This document shows, in pieces, positions 11,201 through 25,694 of a stretch of DNA of 34,463 nt. A model generated the notes under the pieces. That model was not told the origin of the DNA. It made no database searches and saw only the letters and a list, made by a program, of their open reading frames with translations. A program made the translations under genes and the position numbers. How positions within the stretch are numbered: the stretch's first letter is position 1; each line of letters starts with the position of its first letter. The stretch spans positions 1-34,463 of the forward strand of contig JAADGC010000168.1 of the NCBI GenBank assembly GCA_013152585.1, in the 5' to 3' direction. The stretch comes from Chloroflexota bacterium (GTDB taxonomy: Bacteria; Chloroflexota; Anaerolineae; J102).

Positions 11201-14168
11201 AGCGCATGCGGCCATTGTCCCCGCGTTGGCGCACTGTGCGCCAGTCGATCAGGCTGATGTTGACCGCCATCGTCTGCGCGGCCAGCGGCGCCTTGCTGAG
11301 GGCGTCCACGGCAATGAAGTGCGCGATCTGCTCGGTTTGGGTCATGCCCACGTAGCGGTCGGGGCGCACGCCGGGATAGATGCCGGCGGCATGAATGATG
11401 AGGGCGGTGGAGCCGGAGATCTCCTGATCGTTGACATCGGTAACGCTGAATTCGATGGTGCGTACGGCGGATTCGTGCAGGGGCGTGGCCTCGGCGCTAA
11501 GCTCGGTGGGCACGTCGAAGCTGAACTGGCCCTGATCATCGGTTTGACCCTCACCGCTGCCGATTTCCTGGCGATAGGGCTGGCTGAAGGGTCGGAAAAA
11601 GGCGTCGGGCTGGAAGTCGGTGAAGGACCAGGGATGGCCGTCGTCATAGGGGAAAGTGTAGGGAGCGCTGAAGAGGGTCCAACGCGCTTGAGCGCGTTTG
11701 ACCGGGCCGCCACTAAAATAACTGGCCTGCACGGCGGCGGTGGCGGTTTCGCCGGCCAGCACCTCAGCGGGAGCGACGGAAACGCTCAACTCGTATTCAG
11801 GCTTGCGGAATGCTGCCACCAGGAAGCCGACATAGGCAGTGCTTTGATCCGCAATCGTCAGTTGGATGCTGTAAGAGCCCAGCTCGGTTTCACTGCTGAG
11901 CGTGAAGTCGGCAGCAACCGCCCCAAAGGCATCGGCCGTGAGCGTCTTTTTTTCCACCACATCCCCCTGCGGGTTGCGGAGAATGAAGGTGGCGGCAAGG
12001 GATGGCGGTAAGGCGTAGCCGGCGGGGTCGTCGCGGCGGATGATGGCGCGGGCATGCACCGTGTCTCCGGCGCTATAGAGCGGTCGTTCGGTAAGCAAAT
12101 GCACGCGATAATCCTGGGTGTAATACTCGCCCGGCAGATCGAAATTCCACACAGAGATGCCTTGATCCCAACGCGTGCTCGTCCATCCGGGATCATCTTC
12201 TGTGCCCACAAAGGCGATGGTTTCCTGCCAGGGCGAATCGCTGGCAGAAATGCCTGTTTGATACACGCCCTCGGCATTGGTCGTGCCCCCCGAAGCGATG
12301 ATTTCGCCCGCATGATAAATCGTCACCGGCTGTCCTGCCACCGGTTGCCCACTTTGCAGATCGGTGACCCAAACCAAGGCGTTTGTAACGCCTTTTTTGA
12401 TCACCACGTTGTAGCGGCTGATCACGAGTAAGGCGCGGGGTGTGGTATCGTATTCGCCGTAGCTCACCTGTGGCGAACGCGCCGTAATGAAGTAGAAACC
12501 CGGCCCCAGCGGCGCTCCGCTGGCATCTGTCAGAGCAGCGCGGGTCTGGCTGACTTGATTCAGCGAAAGGTCTTGGTGCAGGATCCAACTGCGCACGAGC
12601 TGTGATTTGGGAGGGCGATACGTACGCCAGGCCGAATAATCCTCATCCGGGCGGTTCGTGGCGAATTGCTGCGCCGGCAGCCGATATAGAGCGATATCGA
12701 TATCCGTGATATTGACATGATTAAAACGAATGGCGGGCTCGTTGTAGGCGTCGAATAAACCGATGGTGCCCGGGGTGAGCATACTGAGGAAGGGCGGGAG
12801 ATCGCCGGTGCGGAAGTGGATGGTAGTGGGGTCGGAAATGACATGGCCGTAGGGGTCGCTGATGCCTCCGGCCAGCGTCACTGTGTATGCGGTGCGCGGT
12901 TGCCGGGGGAAATAGATGCTGAGCGATTGATCGTAACTACTGTACCAACTGTAGACCTCTGTGGCGCTGATGGGAGGACTAACATCGAATTGCAGGGTTT
13001 CTTCCAGCACCGGCGCTGTGAAGCGAATGAGTACCGGCCCGTTGACCTCGACGTTATCGACGCCATCCTTGGGATCTGTAAAGAGAATGGCGGGAAGAGG
13101 GGCGATACGGAACAGTTGTGTGCGTGACTTTGGCAGAGGCGCTCCGGAAATGCCTTGGGCCTGAGTCGAGATGGACACCAGCACTTGGGCGCCCATCGGC
13201 AAGGGGGCTTCGGGCATGAATACGAGCTGCTGCCCGTTCTCGTGCCAACTGATCTCCCCTGTCACCACTTCGTCCCCTGCCACCACCTGCACGGCGCCTG
13301 CCGACCTTGCGGGGGCCATTTCTTGGCTGAAGGTGATCGTAATGGGGGTGTTGGGGCTGATAAGATCGCCAACAGGCGCGATGCCGGTCACCACGGGCAC
13401 GGCTGTGCGAAACTGGAAGACAGTGGGCTGTTCCAGGGGGCTGCCGCTCAAGTCGTTGAGATCGGCGATTGTGGCTGTGTACGTGATGCCGCCCGCCAAT
13501 GGGCCGTCCGGCTGGAACAGATAGATGCTGGGGTTCAGCCAGCGACCCGAGCCGCTGACTACCGGTTCCAGGTTCAGCGGCTGCGGCAGGCTGGGGTCAT
13601 CCCCGGCAATACCCAGCGGCACCACGGGCCGGTTGAAGGCAATGCTGATGGGGGCGTCGATGGCGATGCCCTCGGCGCCATCGCTGGGCGTGGTGGCCGT
13701 CACCTGCAGATAGCCCTGGGTTTGAATATGAAAACGCAGGGGCCCGGTTTGCAGCCCCTGGCTGGCGGCGCTGAGTTGCAGCAAGTAGCGCTTGCCGCGC
13801 TGATATGCGGCAGGCGTATACCGCACCGTGTTCCCCGATACCCGCAGCTTGCCGGGCAGCTCTGGCTCGAACGCCAGCGACAGGCTGTCGGCATCCACAG
13901 GCTGATCGAAAATAATCTCGATCGGCTGTTGCGGTGACAGTTCTTCGCCCCGGGCCGGATGCATGGCTACCACGCGGGGAGGCAGCGGCGGCAATGTCGG
14001 CACCACAGCCACAGCAACCACCGTGGGCTCTGGCGTAGGGAGCGGGGTGGCTGTGGGGGCAATGGGGGACGCTGTGGGGGTGGGCGCCTGTTTGCGACCA
14101 CAGGCCGACAGCAGCAAGCTGAACACAATCAACAAAATCAGGCCTGGCAAGAAAAAACGTCTGTTCAT
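8205..14168 (-). CDS. Lipoprotein alpha-2-macroglobulin with intact thioester motif
   Basis: A 1987-aa surface protein. The start is ATG 14168 (GGGGAG just upstream), giving a signal peptide with lipobox LSAC and lipidated Cys23, then a Pro/Thr-rich linker. Several Ig-like (Big_5) repeats follow, e.g. around SPQQPIEIIFDQPVD and DGAEGIAIDAPISIAFNRP, then macroglobulin domains. A Gly-rich, bait-like stretch (SKGAKGGGGGGFARLA) lies around residue 1250. The thioester motif CTEQ is at 1492-1495 within FEYECTEQTVSRFLPN, inside the alpha/alpha thioester domain (NPDGGWGWFAQEE). Bacterial alpha-2-macroglobulins are protease traps guarding the cell envelope. In proteobacteria the gene often pairs with pbpC; none is here. 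The longer frame from 14249 would mask the signal peptide, so it was rejected. Confidence 0.95.
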   Translation of the reverse strand: MNRRFFLPGLILLIVFSLLLSACGRKQAPTPTASPIAPTATPLPTPEPTVVAVAVVPTLPPLPPRVVAMHPARGEELSPQQPIEIIFDQPVDADSLSLAFEPELPGKLRVSGNTVRYTPAAYQRGKRYLLQLSAASQGLQTGPLRFHIQTQGYLQVTATTPSDGAEGIAIDAPISIAFNRPVVPLGIAGDDPSLPQPLNLEPVVSGSGRWLNPSIYLFQPDGPLAGGITYTATIADLNDLSGSPLEQPTVFQFRTAVPVVTGIAPVGDLISPNTPITITFSQEMAPARSAGAVQVVAGDEVVTGEISWHENGQQLVFMPEAPLPMGAQVLVSISTQAQGISGAPLPKSRTQLFRIAPLPAILFTDPKDGVDNVEVNGPVLIRFTAPVLEETLQFDVSPPISATEVYSWYSSYDQSLSIYFPRQPRTAYTVTLAGGISDPYGHVISDPTTIHFRTGDLPPFLSMLTPGTIGLFDAYNEPAIRFNHVNITDIDIALYRLPAQQFATNRPDEDYSAWRTYRPPKSQLVRSWILHQDLSLNQVSQTRAALTDASGAPLGPGFYFITARSPQVSYGEYDTTPRALLVISRYNVVIKKGVTNALVWVTDLQSGQPVAGQPVTIYHAGEIIASGGTTNAEGVYQTGISASDSPWQETIAFVGTEDDPGWTSTRWDQGISVWNFDLPGEYYTQDYRVHLLTERPLYSAGDTVHARAIIRRDDPAGYALPPSLAATFILRNPQGDVVEKKTLTADAFGAVAADFTLSSETELGSYSIQLTIADQSTAYVGFLVAAFRKPEYELSVSVAPAEVLAGETATAAVQASYFSGGPVKRAQARWTLFSAPYTFPYDDGHPWSFTDFQPDAFFRPFSQPYRQEIGSGEGQTDDQGQFSFDVPTELSAEATPLHESAVRTIEFSVTDVNDQEISGSTALIIHAAGIYPGVRPDRYVGMTQTEQIAHFIAVDALSKAPLAAQTMAVNISLIDWRTVRQRGDNGRMRYTSTVDETPVVTTTVTTGADGTATLAWTPEQPGQYLIRTTAGDALGNSKRSAAFAWISGTSYAPWRISNDDRIELIADRDTYQVGDTAQILIPSPFAGPTTALVTIEQRNIISHRLVILQSNSETLEVPILGTYAPDVFVSVLLVQPPTADEPPGFKLGLVQINVDVSQHLLNLSLSAEPNPARPGDTVSYTIRATDYSGRPVSSQISLALVDKALLSLRPDETPGIAQTFWSQRGLGVQTGVSLVASLNRIDEAQSKGAKGGGGGGFARLADIDVRSDFRDIAFWQADVETNSQGEATVQVTLPDNLTTWQMRAIGVTRNTIVGEATYDLLVTKPLLVRPVLPRFVVHGDHFLLGAIVQNNTGQDQRVALSIELDGLSTQDDPTFQLDIPAGELSRVDLPVEVNDIDPSSSLVRQTVGVRIVARANDVNDAIELSLPVRRYSSPETVATAGVVSADETRYEAISLPDRYDPTQGEFTLRLEPSLAAGMTEGLRYLKHFEYECTEQTVSRFLPNILTTRALGALGLSRPDLAAGLATQVNVGLQRLLTRQNPDGGWGWFAQEESNLYTSAYVLFGLAAAQGIGYTVDSGVIQRGADFLRQQLRNPDDLQDYELNRQAFIVYVLDEVSRSNNGARPLADAQLLVGARQRLALYAQAYLALTLQAQSDVAATASQAQDVLDNLLGQAIVSATGAHWEEANSDWWTMNTDTRSTAVILAALVAIQPDHPLGPNVVRWLMHARTDGHWQSTHETAWTLIALTDWMAATGELQADYDWDALFNGQPLANGHISPADVQTPYTLRIAIADLLADQLNLLQIDRGAGPGQLYYSADLRVYLPVPDLQPLSRGITVARRYFLANDETGTNITAAHVGDIIDVELTLIIPSQMHYFLLEDPIPAGAEPIDSSLATTSQRYSGPSLDTVGETAPAWWRWWWYPTSFELKDDKVALFATSLAPGTYTFRYQLRASIAGDFNVLPPRAEMMYFPEVFGRGAGSVFHITRP

Positions 14169-14494
14169 GGTAACTCCCCGTGCAAGCTGGTGAAGGCAGA
14201 GCGCATCAAGCGTATCTGGTTCGGGCGAACCTGATACCCATTGTGACATATTTTTCCATAATAATCCAGTCGATTTGTCATCGCTTAGCCTACGAATACA
14301 GGGTCATTGGCAAACGCTGAACCCGGCACCTACCTTCCGTACTATCCCCCACCTTTTTTCTTCCGTTCGGCTCACGGAACCATTTGTCTCAAGCCTCAAA
14401 ATGCGGTACAGTATTTTTTGACCCTCTCTTCCCGTCTCGGCGACTTTGCGTTGAAAAACCTCCGCCCCTCTGCCTCTCGACGTTAAAAATCGAC
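14169..14494. other. Divergent intergenic region
   Basis: This gap separates the minus-strand alpha-2-macroglobulin gene from the plus-strand methyltransferase and should hold both promoters. A minus-strand TATTAT near 14256-14261 is a possible -10, but no well-spaced -35 supports it. Around 14432-14450 there is a GCGACTTTGCG stretch of the dispersed CTTTGCG repeat family. A reading frame extending the methyltransferase back to TTG 14384 lacks family similarity. Confidence 0.5.
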
Positions 14495-15301
14495 ATGTCT
14501 GACCTGAATCAACCCGAGCATCTGCTCAAACATCAATACCAAAATGATGCCAATCTGCAAGCGCGTATCAGCCTGCACCAGCGATTCGGCAGCAACCCCA
14601 TGCCCTGGCAGCGTTGGGTCTTCGACCACTTGCAACTGCCGGCGTCGGCGCGTGTTCTCGAACTGGGCTGTGGCCCGGCCATGCTCTGGGCCGAGAACCT
14701 GGATCGTATCCCCAGCGGCTGGGATATCACCCTCTCTGATTTTTCAGCCGGCATGTTGGCCAAAGCCCGCTTGCACTTGCAGCAAAGTGGCCATCCCTTC
14801 CGTTTTCTGTGCATCAATGCCCAAGACCTACCCTTTGCCAGCGGTGCCTTCGATGCGGTGATCGCTAACCATATGCTTTATCACGTGCCCAACCGCGGTC
14901 AGGCTTTGGCAGAAGTCCGGCGTCTGCTCAAAAGCGGTGGTCGCTTCTTTGCCGCCACCATCGGCAAAGGTCACATGCAAGAATTATTCGATCTGGTTCG
15001 CCGCCTGGCACCGAACCAGGATATTTTCTCCCTGGGGTTCAACCGCACAGCTTTTACGCTGGAAAGTGGTGGTGATCAACTGGCCTCCCACTTCGGCACT
15101 GTTAGCCTGCATCGTTTTTACGACGATTTGAGTGTGACCGAAACTCAGCCTCTCGTCGAGTATGTGCGTTCGATGCTCAGCGGTTTTCCTGTGCCCGAAA
15201 CAGCGTACGCAACGCTGGCCGAGATCATGGATGAAGAAATTCGTCAGCAGGGTGCTCTGCACATCGGCAAAGCGACAGGGCTGTTCGTCGCCTCGGCCTG
15301 A
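14495..15301 (+). CDS. Class I SAM-dependent methyltransferase
   Basis: A 268-aa cytosolic Rossmann-fold methyltransferase of the UbiE/Methyltransf_11 type. Motif I is VLELGCGPAMLW, an acidic residue follows in ITLSDFSAGML, motif II/III is INAQDLPFASGAFDAVIANHMLYHVPN, and RLLKSGGRFFAAT follows. The substrate cannot be inferred; relatives act on small molecules, quinones or lipids. ATG 14495 (MSDLNQPEHLL) is chosen because similarity to the family starts about there; the Shine-Dalgarno is weak. The gene appears monocistronic. Confidence 0.88.
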   Translation: MSDLNQPEHLLKHQYQNDANLQARISLHQRFGSNPMPWQRWVFDHLQLPASARVLELGCGPAMLWAENLDRIPSGWDITLSDFSAGMLAKARLHLQQSGHPFRFLCINAQDLPFASGAFDAVIANHMLYHVPNRGQALAEVRRLLKSGGRFFAATIGKGHMQELFDLVRRLAPNQDIFSLGFNRTAFTLESGGDQLASHFGTVSLHRFYDDLSVTETQPLVEYVRSMLSGFPVPETAYATLAEIMDEEIRQQGALHIGKATGLFVASA

Positions 15302-15420
15302 GGTGGCAAGCTGGCTAACGGTAGTTTCAGCCGAGGAAGGCCGCAAAGCGGTTTGCTGCATGCGAGGTGTGCGACTCTTTTCGTTCAAAACGTGCATCCG
15401 CGATCTTCTACTTCTACCAT

Positions 15421-15837
15421 CTATAAAGAGGCTATCTCACTGATGAGTACAGGGATATTGGGATGAGTAAAACTCATTTCTGGCGCTGGAATTCGATTAT
15501 GCCTGATGTTGGGAGGAGTATGTTTGTGATGAGGGTGCGTACTTTGAAGTGAATCTTCATTCGGGTGGGGTTGCGAATCGTACCAGTAAAGTTTTTCATT
15601 CCCTCGATACACTTCATATCCATACCAATCCAACACAATAGGCAATCGGTGATACAAAACCCGCTCTCGAACCACTAGACGGATATCGTTTTCGAAAAAC
15701 AATTCCCCCGCTACTCTAGCTAGCGATGACCCAAGATGTATAAAAGTAATAGTCGAACGTTTGACCGAGGGATATTCATCTATCAGCGAATAGAGGAATA
15801 ATTCGTAATCCTCAGGTGTTCGAAAGAGGTTTCTCAC
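15421..15837 (-). CDS. TumE-family (DUF6516) toxin of a toxin-antitoxin pair
   Basis: A 138-aa protein matching the TumE/DUF6516 type: a beta-rich N-terminal half (RVAGELFFENDIRLVVRERV), the conserved YEVYRGNEKLYWYDSQPHP block near 74-92, a His-rich THPHHKHTPPNIRHNRIPAP stretch (about 100-119) and SFTHPNIPVLISEI at the end. Members are reported as toxins of type II systems; the mechanism is not visible from sequence. The GTG start overlaps the stop of the upstream partner by 4 bp (GTGA, 15834-15837), so translation is coupled and antitoxin comes first. It lies at the edge of an AT-richer region with a second toxin-antitoxin pair, which suggests horizontal acquisition. Confidence 0.82.
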   Translation of the reverse strand: MRNLFRTPEDYELFLYSLIDEYPSVKRSTITFIHLGSSLARVAGELFFENDIRLVVRERVLYHRLPIVLDWYGYEVYRGNEKLYWYDSQPHPNEDSLQSTHPHHKHTPPNIRHNRIPAPEMSFTHPNIPVLISEIASL

Positions 15838-16103
15838 GCCGCTTCTCGGACTAAACCGACTAAACTGGGCGACCGACGTTGAATCCGTTGGATTTCATTT
15901 CGATATTCGGCTTGGCGCGCTAACCAAGTCTTGTATACACTCGCCCATTCACCAAAGTCCAATACCCATTTATCATCTTCTGGCTCTTCTCCGGTTACAT
16001 AAGCAGCATACAAGGTCTCGGATCGGATACCATACTTCCGTTCGAACTGGAGAAGTTCTTCTTCGAGTGCGTGAATATCGGCCAAGATTTCGCGTATATT
16101 CAT
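15834..16103 (-). CDS. Probable antitoxin partner of the TumE-family toxin
   Basis: An 89-aa acidic, mostly alpha-helical protein. An N-terminal Leu/Glu-rich heptad-like helix (REILADIHALEEELLQFERKYG) precedes a Trp-rich middle (DKWVLDFGEWASVYKTWLARQAEY). No DNA-binding helix-turn-helix is obvious. The antitoxin role is inferred from position: first gene, small, overlapping the TumE-type toxin by 4 bp. I do not recognise the sequence family with confidence. Confidence 0.72.
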   Translation of the reverse strand: MNIREILADIHALEEELLQFERKYGIRSETLYAAYVTGEEPEDDKWVLDFGEWASVYKTWLARQAEYRNEIQRIQRRSPSLVGLVREAA

Positions 16104-16121
16104 AGTTCACTTCTACACACA

Positions 16122-16150
16122 ATTATAGTGCAGTTTGACCGCCACGAAAA
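16122..16150 (-). promoter_or_regulatory. Possible promoter just upstream of the TumE-pair antitoxin
   Basis: Read on the minus strand, a perfect TATAAT (16127-16122) lies 18 bp before the ATG at 16103. The sequence 17 bases further upstream (TTTTCG, 16150-16145) is a poor -35. A second candidate with a perfect -35 lies farther upstream at 16387-16358. Confidence 0.45.
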
Positions 16151-16321
16151 CATCCGCGTTCATCCTTGACTAGCCGCACAATGACTACAGGATTGATGAA
16201 GCAGCGTGGCAACAAATGATGAGTGTCGAGCATGTGATCGCCTGGGTTCAGACAAGGATGGGGTTAGAAAAATTGGTCACATCATCCTCAGTTGAACGAA
16301 GTCGAACCACACGCCTGACTG

Positions 16322-16387
16322 CTTTGGGGACCAAGGCGTGAAATAGGCCTTTGCCTGACGATACCATAATGAAAAGTGCGCTGTCAA
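16322..16387 (-). repeat. Promoter-like segment A, homologous to 17233-17298
   Basis: Read on the minus strand it starts with TTGACA (16387-16382), then an 18-base spacer and TATCGT (16363-16358), a plausible promoter pointing at the TumE-type operon about 250 bp away. Hand alignment with 17233-17298 on the plus strand gives about 50 identities in 66 positions, including TTATGGTATCGTCA, TATTTCACG and CCCAAAG. Weaker similarity continues for about 55 more bases. Whether it is a shared control region or the remnant of a duplicated element cannot be told from the sequence. Confidence 0.65.
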
Positions 16388-16619
16388 AAGTGCTTTTAAC
16401 GGTGTATAGTGGTCGTCCGAGGCCAATATCAGCCGCGACCACTGATCTCCAAACACCACTTGTAGCGGCTTTTCGGCCATAGACCATACGCCTCGCTGCC
16501 CCATGCCCCTCAGCCTCTTCTATATCGAAGCACTTTGTTTTTTACAAAGCGTCTCTGAACTTGGTGCGAACCAACCTGCAGTGAGGTGTGAGAGTAAAAA
16601 TATTCCGTATGCTGTGCCG

Positions 16620-16937
16620 TCAGTCTTCCTTACTGCTTTCTTTTTTGGTCGAGTTTTCCGTAGCCTTGGCTGTCGTTGCGTCTTTTGTCTTGCCGTTGGC
16701 GGAGGCGGTTTCTTGTTGGTCTTTGCTGGTCGCATGGGTGGCAGCACTATTCTTGCCACGGCTATCCGTCACATAAAAACCCGAGCCCTTGAAGACAATG
16801 GCGGGCATCGAAAAAACTTTGCGCACTTTCCCGGTGCCATTGCAGTGAGGGCAGGCGGGAATTCCGATATCCGAAAAATGACGGCGAACTTCGAAGTGGG
16901 TGTGACAGGTTTCGCAGAGATACTCGTACAGGGGCAT
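16620..16937 (-). CDS. fmdB: FmdB-family zinc-ribbon protein
   Basis: A 105-aa protein. The N-terminal FmdB/CxxC_CXXC_SSSS zinc ribbon (about 1-45) has MPLYEYLCETC...ACPHCNGTG, two CxxC pairs that should bind one zinc ion. A short KVFSMPAIVFKGSGFYVTD block follows, and then a low-complexity Ser/Thr/Lys/Glu tail to the end, typical of the family. The function is unsettled; the name comes from a putative regulator of formamidase/acetamidase genes. ATG 16937 is used because the domain begins there; the frame upstream is unrelated. It lies between two toxin-antitoxin operons and between two inverted homologous segments. Confidence 0.92.
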   Translation of the reverse strand: MPLYEYLCETCHTHFEVRRHFSDIGIPACPHCNGTGKVRKVFSMPAIVFKGSGFYVTDSRGKNSAATHATSKDQQETASANGKTKDATTAKATENSTKKESSKED

Positions 16938-17232
16938 GGTTGACAGCTCACAAAAACGGGTTAGAATTTTGACCAATAGATAATGATACCGGATGATCGC
17001 CCAGCGGTCAAAACTACCGGGGGCTGAATGCACGTGGACGAACAGAGCACCTGTAAACAGCGATCGATGGGAAAGCCACCTCTTTAGATGGGATGACCTG
17101 TGTTTAAGTTACGCTTGTTAGATAAGATGAACATATGCCAAACATTAATGTTTCATTAATACTTGGACTGAAGACATGGAGGGAAGCCGGGTTGATACTA
17201 AACATCTCACAAGAACCCCACCAAACCGGCTG

Positions 17233-17298
17233 TTGACAGTCTCGTTTTCTTTATGGTATCGTCATGCCAATCAGTATTTCACGACTTCATTCCCAAAG
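17233..17298 (+). repeat. Promoter-like segment B, homologous to 16322-16387
   Basis: TTGACA (17233-17238), an 18-base spacer and TATCGT (17257-17262) form a plausible promoter directed at the DUF433/DUF5615 operon about 220 bp downstream. The segment matches the inverted segment upstream of the TumE-type pair at about three quarters of positions. Both operons would therefore have long 5' leaders of similar length if these promoters are used. Confidence 0.65.
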
Positions 17299-17483
17299 GG
17301 GCCAGACTCGCCCCCTCGGCTCTGTTCAACAAGAGACACTGTAGCGACTTTCTCTGCTCACCGCGATGAGGAATCATGGCTGTTACCTCCGCACAAAAAG
17401 GTTCAGCGTATGTTGGTCGCGTCCCACGTCAACCCTTAATTCAGTATATTTCGATCAGCTACGCTAAAGTATGTGAGGTCTCT

Positions 17484-17795
17484 ATGCTAGTCGAAACCCG
17501 TTATGAACATGTCGTGCTAAATAAAGCACAAGTTCCCATAATACTCGGCTCAACAATGAAGGTAGTCGAGCTTGCATTGGCTCATCTTGCCTATGGATGG
17601 AGTCCGGAAGAATTACACTTTCAGTTTCCACATTTGACTTTGGGACAAATATATTCAGCCCTTGCCTATTATTGGGATCATCAGGAAGAACTCGATCAGG
17701 ATATTGAGCAACGTATAACATCGGTGGAGCGACTCCAACGATCATTTGGAGGATCACCACTTGTAGCCAGATTAAGAGCCAAAGGGTTGATCTAG
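17484..17795 (+). CDS. DUF433-family antitoxin
   Basis: A 103-aa protein with the DUF433 domain: an N-terminal beta strand region (VETRYEHVVLNKAQVPIILGST), then the helix-turn-helix-like core KVVELALAHLAYGWSPEELHFQFPHLTLGQIYSALAYYWDHQEELD. DUF433 proteins usually accompany PIN-like DUF5615 proteins and are treated as antitoxins and autoregulators. ATG 17484 has GAGGT about 5 bases upstream; longer frames from 17376 lack family similarity. The stop overlaps the next gene's GTG start (TAGTG), showing translational coupling. Confidence 0.9.
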   Translation: MLVETRYEHVVLNKAQVPIILGSTMKVVELALAHLAYGWSPEELHFQFPHLTLGQIYSALAYYWDHQEELDQDIEQRITSVERLQRSFGGSPLVARLRAKGLI

Positions 17796-18142
17796 TGGCG
17801 CTTGCGTTCTACATGGATCATCATGTGCCCAGAGCCATTATAAATGGGCTTCGTCTTCGAGGCATAGATGTACTTACAGCTTACGAAGATGGCACGAGCG
17901 AATACGAAGATGCAGATTTGTTGGATCGCGCTACTGAGTTACAGCGTGTGCTGTTTTCTCAAGACGACGATTTACTCAGCGAAGCCGCCAAGCGTATTCG
18001 TGAAAACAGTTTTTTCTACGGGGTGATTTATGCGCATCAATTGCGAGTATCGATAGGAACCTGCGTTAATGAACTCGAAATTATTGCACAAGCAAGTGAG
18101 CCTGAAGATATTATCAATCGCGTGCAATTCCTACCACTGTGA
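17795..18142 (+). CDS. DUF5615 PIN-like toxin
   Basis: A 115-aa PIN-like protein. Acidic residues of the putative nuclease site are visible at YMDHHVP (Asp8), the DLLDRATELQ region (Asp45/Asp48) and FSQDDDLL (Asp60-62). The ending GVIYAHQLRVSIGTCVNELEIIAQASEPEDIINRVQFLPL is highly typical of DUF5615. PIN-like toxins are metal-dependent RNases; this subfamily is assigned as toxin mainly by its constant pairing with DUF433. The start is GTG, sharing one base with the antitoxin stop. This is the second toxin-antitoxin pair within 2.7 kb. Confidence 0.9.
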   Translation: MALAFYMDHHVPRAIINGLRLRGIDVLTAYEDGTSEYEDADLLDRATELQRVLFSQDDDLLSEAAKRIRENSFFYGVIYAHQLRVSIGTCVNELEIIAQASEPEDIINRVQFLPL

Positions 18143-18332
18143 TAGCGGCAGCATGGTTCTAAATCCGAGAGGGCTGCCCAACTCCACGTTAACCGGATTC
18201 GCCTTCGGCTCCGGGAAGCGGTGCGATCTTTGCAAGAAATTCACTGTAGCGAAATAGGCGAGTCTTGCAAAAGTTGGCGAGCGGGTCACGCACACCGTTA
18301 GTATGATCGCGTGCTTGCGGCCACACCGCCAG

Positions 18333-19568
18333 CTAATTGGCGGCTGTGAGCACAGCGGTGATGCGTTCCAGGGCCCAGTCGATGGTGGGGCGAGTGATGA
18401 CGAGGGGTGGGGCGAAACGGATGACCGTGCCGTGGGTGTCTTTGGCCAAAATGTTTTGTGTTTGTAGTTGATCGCAAAAGGCGCGGGCGCCTCCGGCTTC
18501 GGGCTTGAGTTGCACGCCGATGAGCATGCCCCTGCCCCGCACTTCCTGCACAAAGGGACTTTCGATCTCTTGCAAACGCTGGCGGAAATAATCACCCAGC
18601 TTGGCGGCGTTGTCGATCAATCCTTCGTCCTGCAGCACGGCCAGCGCCGTACGGGCCACGGCCGCGCCCAGGGGATTGCCGCCAAAAGTGGAGCCGTGAT
18701 CGCCGGGTTGGAAGACTCCCAAGACCTCGCGGTCTGACAAAACGGCTGACACCGGATAGAAACCACCCGAGAGCGCTTTGCCCAGGATCATCACATCGGG
18801 CCGCACGCCTTCATGGTCGCAAGCAAAACGCTTGCCGGTGCGCCCCAGGCCGGTCTGGATTTCGTCGGCCATCAACAGCACATTGTGCTGGCGGCAAATA
18901 TCGGCTACAGCGCTGAGATATCCCTGCGGCGGCACCACCACGCCGCCTTCGCCCTGGATCGGCTCGACCAGGAAGGCGACGGTATTGGGGCCGATGGCCT
19001 CACGCAAGGCCCGGGCATCGCCATACGGGATAATGCGGAAGCCGGGGGTGAGAGGACCAAATCCGGCCTTGTATTGCGCTTCGGAGGAAAAACTGATAAT
19101 GGTGGTGGTACGGCCATGAAAATTACCGGCACAAACGATGATCTCCGCCTGATCCGGCGCCACATGCTTCACCTCGTAGCCCCATTTGCGCGCCGCCTTG
19201 ATGGCCGTCTCCACGGCTTCGGCGCCGCTGTTCATGGGCAACGCCAGCTCGTAGCCGCCAAACTCGCACAGATCACGATAGAACAGCCCCAGTTGATCAT
19301 TATAAAACGCCCGTGAGGTCAGCGTCAGGCGCTGCGCCTGCTCCATCATCGTGGCCAGAATGCGGGGATGGCAATGGCCTTGATTCACGGCGGAATAGGC
19401 ACTCAAACAATCGAGATAACGGTTCCCTTTCACATCATAGACCCAAACACCTTCACCGCGGCTGAGGACAACTCCCAAAGGATGATAATTATGAGCGCCG
19501 TAGCGATCTTCCAAAGCGATAAACTCGGCCGACGATTTGATCTGAGGCCTTTCTCGAGCAAGTATCAT
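18333..19568 (-). CDS. rocD: Ornithine aminotransferase (class III PLP enzyme)
   Basis: A 411-aa fold-type I class III aminotransferase. Ornithine--oxo-acid transaminase converts ornithine and 2-oxoglutarate to glutamate semialdehyde and glutamate in arginine/proline metabolism. Visible features are [83 protein letters not shown] and the PLP lysine in [12 protein letters not shown] (Lys about 264); YSAVNQGH and [11 protein letters not shown] favour RocD over other class III members. AAGGAG lies 11 bases before ATG 19568; an upstream GTG at 19580 abuts that Shine-Dalgarno and is unlikely. A sigma-70-type promoter lies at 19638-19610. The 190-bp gap before 18333 holds no visible gene. Confidence 0.95.
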
Positions 19569-23353: not shown

Positions 23354-23493
23354 CTGGACTTCGGCGTTTTTTCTTTTTGACACGAATTTTCACGAATTTC
23401 ACGAAAAAGTTGGCAAATAATTCGTCGCTTTCGGGTCATTCGTGCTAAAAGATGCGCTGCTAAGCCGTGAGCTTGATTTTCGCCAGACTCCAG
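23354..23493 (+). repeat. MITE-like repeat, copy 1 (140 bp)
   Basis: The left end CTGGACTTCGGCG (23354-23366) and right end CGCCAGACTCCAG (23481-23493) are imperfect inverted repeats (10 of 13). The interior carries repeated ACGAATTT/TTCACGAA stretches. A second copy in opposite orientation lies at 31183-31313 with roughly 80-85% identity by eye; copy 1 has an extra 11 bases near 23421-23431. There is no coding capacity. It fills most of the gap between the flavin reductase and the FemAB-like gene. Confidence 0.8.
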
Positions 23494-23526
23494 TAACATC
23501 TTTTCTCAGCTTGCAAAGCATTCACC

Positions 23527-25437: not shown

Positions 25438-25694
25438 TTCATCTCAGCTCGCCGATTAAGTAAGCGTCCAGGAATAACATTCCTTTTTTGGGTTGACGCT
25501 GGCCGAGGGAACCCTTCACTGCGCTCGAGGGCAGGCTCGGGCTCTTTGGACGCTTTGCGCCGGGAATCGGCCATCGCCGTCCGATCTTCGCCCCATGGAG
25601 AGTCGGCGAAGGCCGACTCCTGGCAGCCTGACTTCAGTCAGCGAGAGCAAAACGAAAGCTAATTTCTAGACGCCGGGCTGGTCTGGTAGCCGCA
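25438..25694. other. Intergenic palindromes between convergent genes
   Basis: There is no gene. AGTCGGC-GAAG-GCCGACT (25601-25618) is a short perfect hairpin, and GACTTCAGTC follows near 25630-25639. Around 25512-25534, CCCTTCACTGCGCTCGAGGGCA resembles the palindromic CCCTGAGCG...CGAAGGG element near 34312-34332. These look like dispersed palindromes between the convergent Crp/Fnr and Nudix genes. Confidence 0.5.

Follow-up and report, generated by a model that had tools for sequence, protein, structure and literature searches.

Genes and paired segments of the window

The window, which is the whole stretch of 34,463 nucleotides analysed here, carries two putative toxin-antitoxin (TA) operons on opposite strands, with an fmdB-type zinc-ribbon gene located between them (Table 1). 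The minus-strand operon consists of a TumE-family toxin gene and its putative antitoxin partner, and the plus-strand operon of a DUF433 putative antitoxin and a DUF5615 PIN-like putative toxin. The ATG at 17484 is the likelier start of the DUF433 gene, because the start of the longer ORF (17376) falls within an attC site.

The initial annotation described an inverted pair of promoter-like segments in front of the two operons, and this pair is real. Positions 16387-16322 (minus strand) and 17233-17298 (plus strand) are identical at 50 of 66 positions according to direct comparison, and a promoter scan detected TTGACA-N18-TATCGT in both. The right copy, used as a BLAST query against its own genome, matched the left copy at E=8e-7. 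When all 66-mer pairs of the window were compared exhaustively and without gaps, only three inverted pairs reached at least 48/66, this one among them. The shared sequence is longer than was noted, as the 66-bp segments form only the 5' half of a unit of ~230 bp: profile comparison extends the homology of the promoter half to 16397-16291 (minus) and 17222-17333 (plus), and the conserved unit runs on through an integron-type attC site to about 16177 (minus) and 17448 (plus). Exhaustive scanning also revealed a stronger inverted repeat elsewhere in the window (23354-23495 versus 31313-31181; 60/66 and 54/66) and a direct repeat at 252/539.

Table 1. Features of the window around the two units, with the support for each.
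Feature	Position	Strand	Support
TumE-family toxin	15421..15837	-	Pfam PF20126, 48.5 bits
Putative antitoxin, TumE partner	15834..16103	-	ORF overlapping the TumE gene; Pfam match only sub-threshold
Left unit, attC, decayed	16177..16303	-	Covariance model R1, 21.8 bits, E=0.015
Left unit, promoter half (putative promoter and leader)	16291..16397	-	Profile match, E=9e-25
Left promoter, predicted	16358..16387	-	-35 TTGACA 16387-16382, 18-bp spacer, -10 TATCGT 16363-16358
fmdB-type zinc-ribbon gene, resident, between both units	16620..16940	-	Pfam PF09723
Lineage-specific insertion (right unit and TA pair)	17156..18297	+	Comparison with G001, G002, G004, G009 and G011; exact ends inferred
Right unit, promoter half (putative promoter and leader)	17222..17333	+	Profile match, E=4e-24
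Right promoter, predicted	17233..17262	+	-35 TTGACA 17233-17238, 18-bp spacer, -10 TATCGT 17257-17262
Right unit, attC, partly decayed (CAG^TATA, not CG^TTA)	17318..17448	+	Covariance model R1, 97.6 bits (itself among the 12 sequences building R1); independent BLAST match to the C18 attC, 5e-10
DUF433 putative antitoxin	17484..17795	+	Pfam PF04255; start inferred
DUF5615 PIN-like putative toxin	17795..18142	+	Pfam PF18480
Possible attC ending the TA cassette (GCCCAAC ... GTTAGTA)	18177..18303	+	Weak: best pairing of the region beaten by 4/150 shuffles and using another core; fold z=-0.8

The gene fmdB is present in 19 of the 20 genomes of the family, and in five relatives (G001, which belongs to the same genus, G002, G004, G009, and G011) it neighbours an aminotransferase gene. 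The right unit and the DUF433/DUF5615 pair lie within an insertion of ~1.14 kb, which is absent from the aminotransferase-fmdB interval of these five relatives, and fmdB is therefore considered a resident gene rather than cargo. In G001, only ~30 bp separate the aminotransferase stop codon from the conserved stretch upstream of fmdB. The window copy of that stretch stops near 17155, with ~1.14 kb in between. The unoccupied site in G001 reads CATTAGTATTTCG^TTAGTGC, and the junctions in the window read CATTAATGTTTCA^TTAATAC and CACCG^TTAGTA, where the flanks are much diverged and the exact junctions are approximate. The apparent start of the insertion, at a G^TT-like junction, lies 66 bp ahead of the right unit, and the resemblance of both junctions to G^TT cores fits an insertion at an integron-type core. 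As for the left unit, comparison with G001 revealed no unoccupied site, since no homology was found beyond the fmdB stop codon. Insertion of both segments into the same kind of site, as suggested in the initial annotation, thus gains ground in that the shared segment belongs to an integron recombination unit and the right copy has an empty counterpart in relatives, but no such counterpart was found for the left copy.

Copies and structure of the unit

The genome is a 3.8-Mb draft from Chloroflexota, Anaerolineae, in 251 contigs, and all genome-wide counts were obtained from sequence and profile searches of these contigs. An iterated profile identified 12 copies of the promoter half, on C215, C11 (two), C106, C210, C18 (two), C166, C133, C72, and in the window (two). 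The congeneric genome G001 contributes two more units (C252, 1-115 and 860-1073), which form an outward-facing inverted pair ~0.8 kb apart. The order within the unit is TTGACA-N17/18-TATC(C/G/T)T, GCCTTAATCCCCAAA, GGCTTCGTTCAACAAGAGATT, and then TGTGGCGGC ... GCCGCGCCACATCAATCCTTAATTCGTTA. The predicted -35 hexamer is TTGACA in 11 of the 12 copies and TTGACG in one, most of the spacer is variable, and the distance from promoter to attC is 59-61 nt. The 5' edge is sharp, 12-17 bp before the -35, and shows no consistent GTT core. Two units stand in tandem on C18, on C11, and in the relative G203, and attCs lacking a promoter half were found on C4 and C66, as well as directly behind genes on C18 and C72. 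There is no gene between the 5' end of the ~230-bp unit and its attC, and no common ORF with a database match. The units were also considered as a coding remnant with common ORFs, which was dropped because the promoter hexamers and attC cores are conserved and the reading frame is not.

The cores of attC sites follow the patterns RYYYAAC (R'') and GTTRRRY (R'). The 3' half of the unit is an integron attC of the form GTTCAAC...GTGGCGGC//GCCGCGCCACATCAATCCTTAATTCGTTA, with R'' GTTCAAC and R' CGTTAGC/CGTTGGGC in intact copies and CGTTAGGC in relatives, whereas both window copies are decayed. The two arms pair with one extrahelical base, and 84% of the cells in the attC stem are paired. Three pairs are changed on both sides, which was equalled by 48 of 500 shuffles, so that the covariation is at most suggestive. 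Folding predicts the expected stem for C18b (z -1.3) and for C30 of G007 (z -1.7), but not for the right window attC (z=+0.7). Identity between copies, both in the own genome and in the pairs of G203 and G209, stops abruptly after CGTT, that is, at the G^TT crossover, as expected if the bases behind the crossover belong to the next cassette (PMC11014356). As both window attCs are decayed (CAG^TATA in the right copy and 21.8 bits for the left), these copies are probably fossil recombination sites; they are old, with attCs that are probably no longer recombinogenic and promoters that look intact. A short palindrome, CCTGTCTGC-NNN-CAGGCAGG, has been inserted within the attC of three units (L009 ~12986-13010, L060 ~170-195, and L061 ~1770-1795).

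An intact integron integrase gene is present on C37; it scores 498 bits, where the NCBIfam model requires 265. Its best PDB match is 2a3v (E=3e-101), an integron integrase of solved structure, which ranks far ahead of the Xer recombinases. A truncated second tyrosine recombinase gene adjoins it (L057, C37 of the own genome G000, 13769-14212) and runs to the contig end. The unit was also considered as a copy of the platform's own Pc-attI, a candidate rejected after the promoter profile gave no match on C37.

A methyltransferase cassette on C18 is bounded by GTTATACCC ... GGGTATAAC, followed by the attC start, and a UPF0175 and PIN cassette on C106 is followed by its own, unrelated attC-like palindrome (0/150 shuffles; fold z=-2.75). 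A scan for R''/R' cores behind genes and upstream of units detected no attC in six of the stretches scanned, and most cassette 3' ends were not found. Moreover, Rfam gave no match at E<=1 in window positions 15000-18600 and only chance-level matches at eight loci, a plasmid BLAST search gave no match, and no viral contig pattern was seen.

Repeats beside some units belong to separate MITE-like families. One is a repeat of ~146 bp with the ends GGGTGCGTCCC/GGGACGCACCC, whose copies are 88-98% identical and occur at L008 (C210, 1240-1390), at L068 (C237, 1117-1261), and at about 40 other places in the genome; it lies just upstream of the unit on C210, with a 9-bp duplication (CACGTCAAA), and beside an attC-like end on C237. 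Another repeat family, likewise dispersed, is ~230 bp long and has GCGTC(T/C)A...-like ends; it was found at 25457-25672 of the window, at L060 (1352-1590), L062, and L065 (7775-7939), and on C106 it follows a cassette attC at a distance of a few bases.

The initial annotation also offered the two copies as the ends of a decayed element that had contained fmdB. They would then be terminal repeats of a decayed transposon. The copies are indeed inverted around fmdB, the second outward-facing pair on C252 of G001 encloses transposase-like remnants, and the genome has MITEs, one of them with a 9-bp duplication. However, fmdB is resident beside the same aminotransferase gene in the five relatives that lack the unit and the TA pair there, the other copies are single or in direct tandem before genes, and the 3' boundary coincides with the attC crossover in every lineage, all of which makes a transposon origin very improbable.

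Related units in Anaerolineae and the genes behind them

With the unit as the BLAST query, other genera match only at its attC 3' end, while a covariance model of the attC matches 32 of 396 genomes of the class (E<=1e-5). The leader-attC pattern also occurs in public records whose titles name Thermoflexales, Chloroflexi, and Anaerolineae bacteria. Candidate promoters upstream of these attCs are TTGCCC-type, N18, TACAAT in G039, G143, and G074, TTGTCA-N18-TACAAT in G209, TTGACA-N17-TACAAT in G142 and G100, and TTGACA-N18-TATACT in G192 and G298. The -10 of the best promoter is located 78-104 nt upstream of attC at 24 of 40 sites in relatives, against 6.7 +/- 2.3 (maximum 15 in 60 trials) in a Markov-resampled null, and the mean promoter score is 9.9 versus 5.7 in the null; because related loci are not independent, this excess is a description and not a probability. 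A box, CTTAAATTCCAAA, which lies outside the search model, occurs with at most three mismatches within 75 nt upstream of attC at 24 of 41 loci, mostly 28-36 nt away; examples are L120 1965, L125 1880, and L132 3311. In G039, the box and attC are about 290 bp from an integrase fragment. Units paired within one genome share 85% (G203) or 89% (G209) identity across ~255 bp; both limits of this similarity are sharp, and the 3' one falls at GTT. The near-invariant -35 and the conservation across the class back the initial description of the segments as promoter-like.

Of the 12 promoter-bearing units found in the whole genome, 8 precede TA pairs, two precede DNA methyltransferase genes (C18 and C133) and two precede other genes (a DJ-1 protein and a small membrane protein). 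The eight TA-type loci encode the TumE pair and DUF433/DUF5615 (both in the window), Phd-like + PIN, UPF0175 + DUF3368, PIN + partner, HigB + HTH, DUF2281 + PemK, and nucleotidyltransferase + HepT, and these families are mutually unrelated. In relatives, only 4 of 20 scanned downstream genes are TA components (HigB, BrnT, DUF2281, and PemK); among the others are genes for a peroxidase, a radical SAM protein, TrmO, a restriction enzyme, a protein resembling Imm5, and proteins of unknown function. TA genes are a common cargo of integrons (PMC9668308), and TA pairs are frequent among cassettes (PMC9668308, PMC11023631).

Co-regulation of the two TA families, which was first proposed to explain the common leader, would make the shared sequence an operator for mutual control among the TA systems or for control by a single antitoxin. 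The preponderance of TA pairs behind the units of this genome agrees with such a role, but units also stand before methyltransferase and DJ-1 genes here and before peroxidase, radical SAM, TrmO, and other genes in relatives, the TA families concerned are unrelated, and the conservation takes in an attC that regulation would not need. We thus consider an operator to be highly unlikely.

Interpretation and comparison with known systems

We interpret the paired segments as the promoter halves of two integron-derived units, which are most likely promoter cassettes without a gene of their own (probability roughly 0.7, judged from the sequences). Within ~230 bp, each unit would combine a promoter of the sigma-70 type with a leader and an attC, and it would have spread in the genome along with integron gene cassettes. 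The units sit 5' of captured genes, which are mostly TA pairs in this genome, and the attC separates the promoter from the gene. IntI would recombine the attC of the unit, with the crossover at G^TT, with another attC, attI, or secondary genomic sites; a cassette joined to the 3' end of the unit would then be transcribed from the unit promoter through attC, and the unit itself would move as a cassette. According to this interpretation, the two TA operons have a leader in common owing to their position behind integron units of one kind, and such a unit resembles a portable switch for genes that have been captured.

Alternatively, the units might be dispersed landing pads without an integrase, i.e., fixed platforms resembling Pc-attI that spread by other means and in which IntI, acting in trans, would place cassettes through recombination between two attCs. 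The 5' edge, which lies 12-17 bp ahead of the -35 and has no clear GTT core, leaves room for fixed landing pads, and the conserved promoter-to-attC distance and leader box, the usually single model match per locus, and the position of the unit directly before genes are in line with them. In contrast, the apparent G^TT-like start of the window insertion, 66 bp ahead of the unit, suits a cassette, and tandem units occur on C18, C11, and in G203, so that we regard fixed landing pads as rather unlikely. A broader proposal, that Anaerolineae possess dispersed mini-platforms lacking an integrase (a ~230-260-bp unit of promoter, leader with the box CTTAAATTCCAAA, and attC) that capture and express cassettes at many chromosomal places, is tentative, and somewhat doubtful at present; if it were true, captured genes could lie outside a single integron array and be independent of its Pc promoter.

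In the usual view, expression from a single promoter reaches only the first cassettes of an integron. With a conserved promoter fixed to a recombination site and repeated around the chromosome and across the class, captured genes for TA, restriction, and other functions could be expressed at any place where they landed. The unit would also serve as a sequence marker in searches for cassettes in Chloroflexota, in which integrons have already been reported (PMC9668308).

Promoter-bearing cassettes without genes, TA cassettes, attC clusters lacking an integrase, and attG insertions are already known, and an incomplete search of the open-access literature yielded no homologous promoter-leader-attC unit amplified within genomes and across Anaerolineae. 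Similar to the Pc-attI platform, the unit has a putative promoter reading into a recombination site and captured cassettes, but its site is an attC-type palindrome instead of attI, and the unit has no match on the genome's own intI contig. Like CALIN and single attC sites lacking an integrase, these attCs lie away from intI, as far as a draft assembly shows, with cassettes attached, but unlike them they are coupled to a promoter at a conserved distance. Cassettes were reported to insert at genomic attG sites (Loot et al. 2024, as cited in PMC12901181), and the right window block, which lies in no array and occupies a G^TT-like site of the chromosome, resembles such an insertion to judge from the comparison with relatives, with approximate junctions and IntI as its putative agent. 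As in integron TA cassettes, TA pairs are the cargo; those cassettes were described with their own promoters, while here a common promoter would lie 5' of the preceding attC, and TA-internal promoters are possible too. Finally, gene-less cassettes of Vibrio superintegrons were shown experimentally to have promoter activity (Nucleic Acids Res 2024, PMC11014356). The Vibrio promoter cassettes lie in superintegron arrays and were tested by experiment, whereas the Anaerolineae units occupy dispersed chromosomal sites and were recognised from their sequence; and, unlike in Vibrio, they are copies of a single homologous unit, conserved in its -35/-10, its leader box, and its attC, which has been amplified within genomes and recurs across Anaerolineae.
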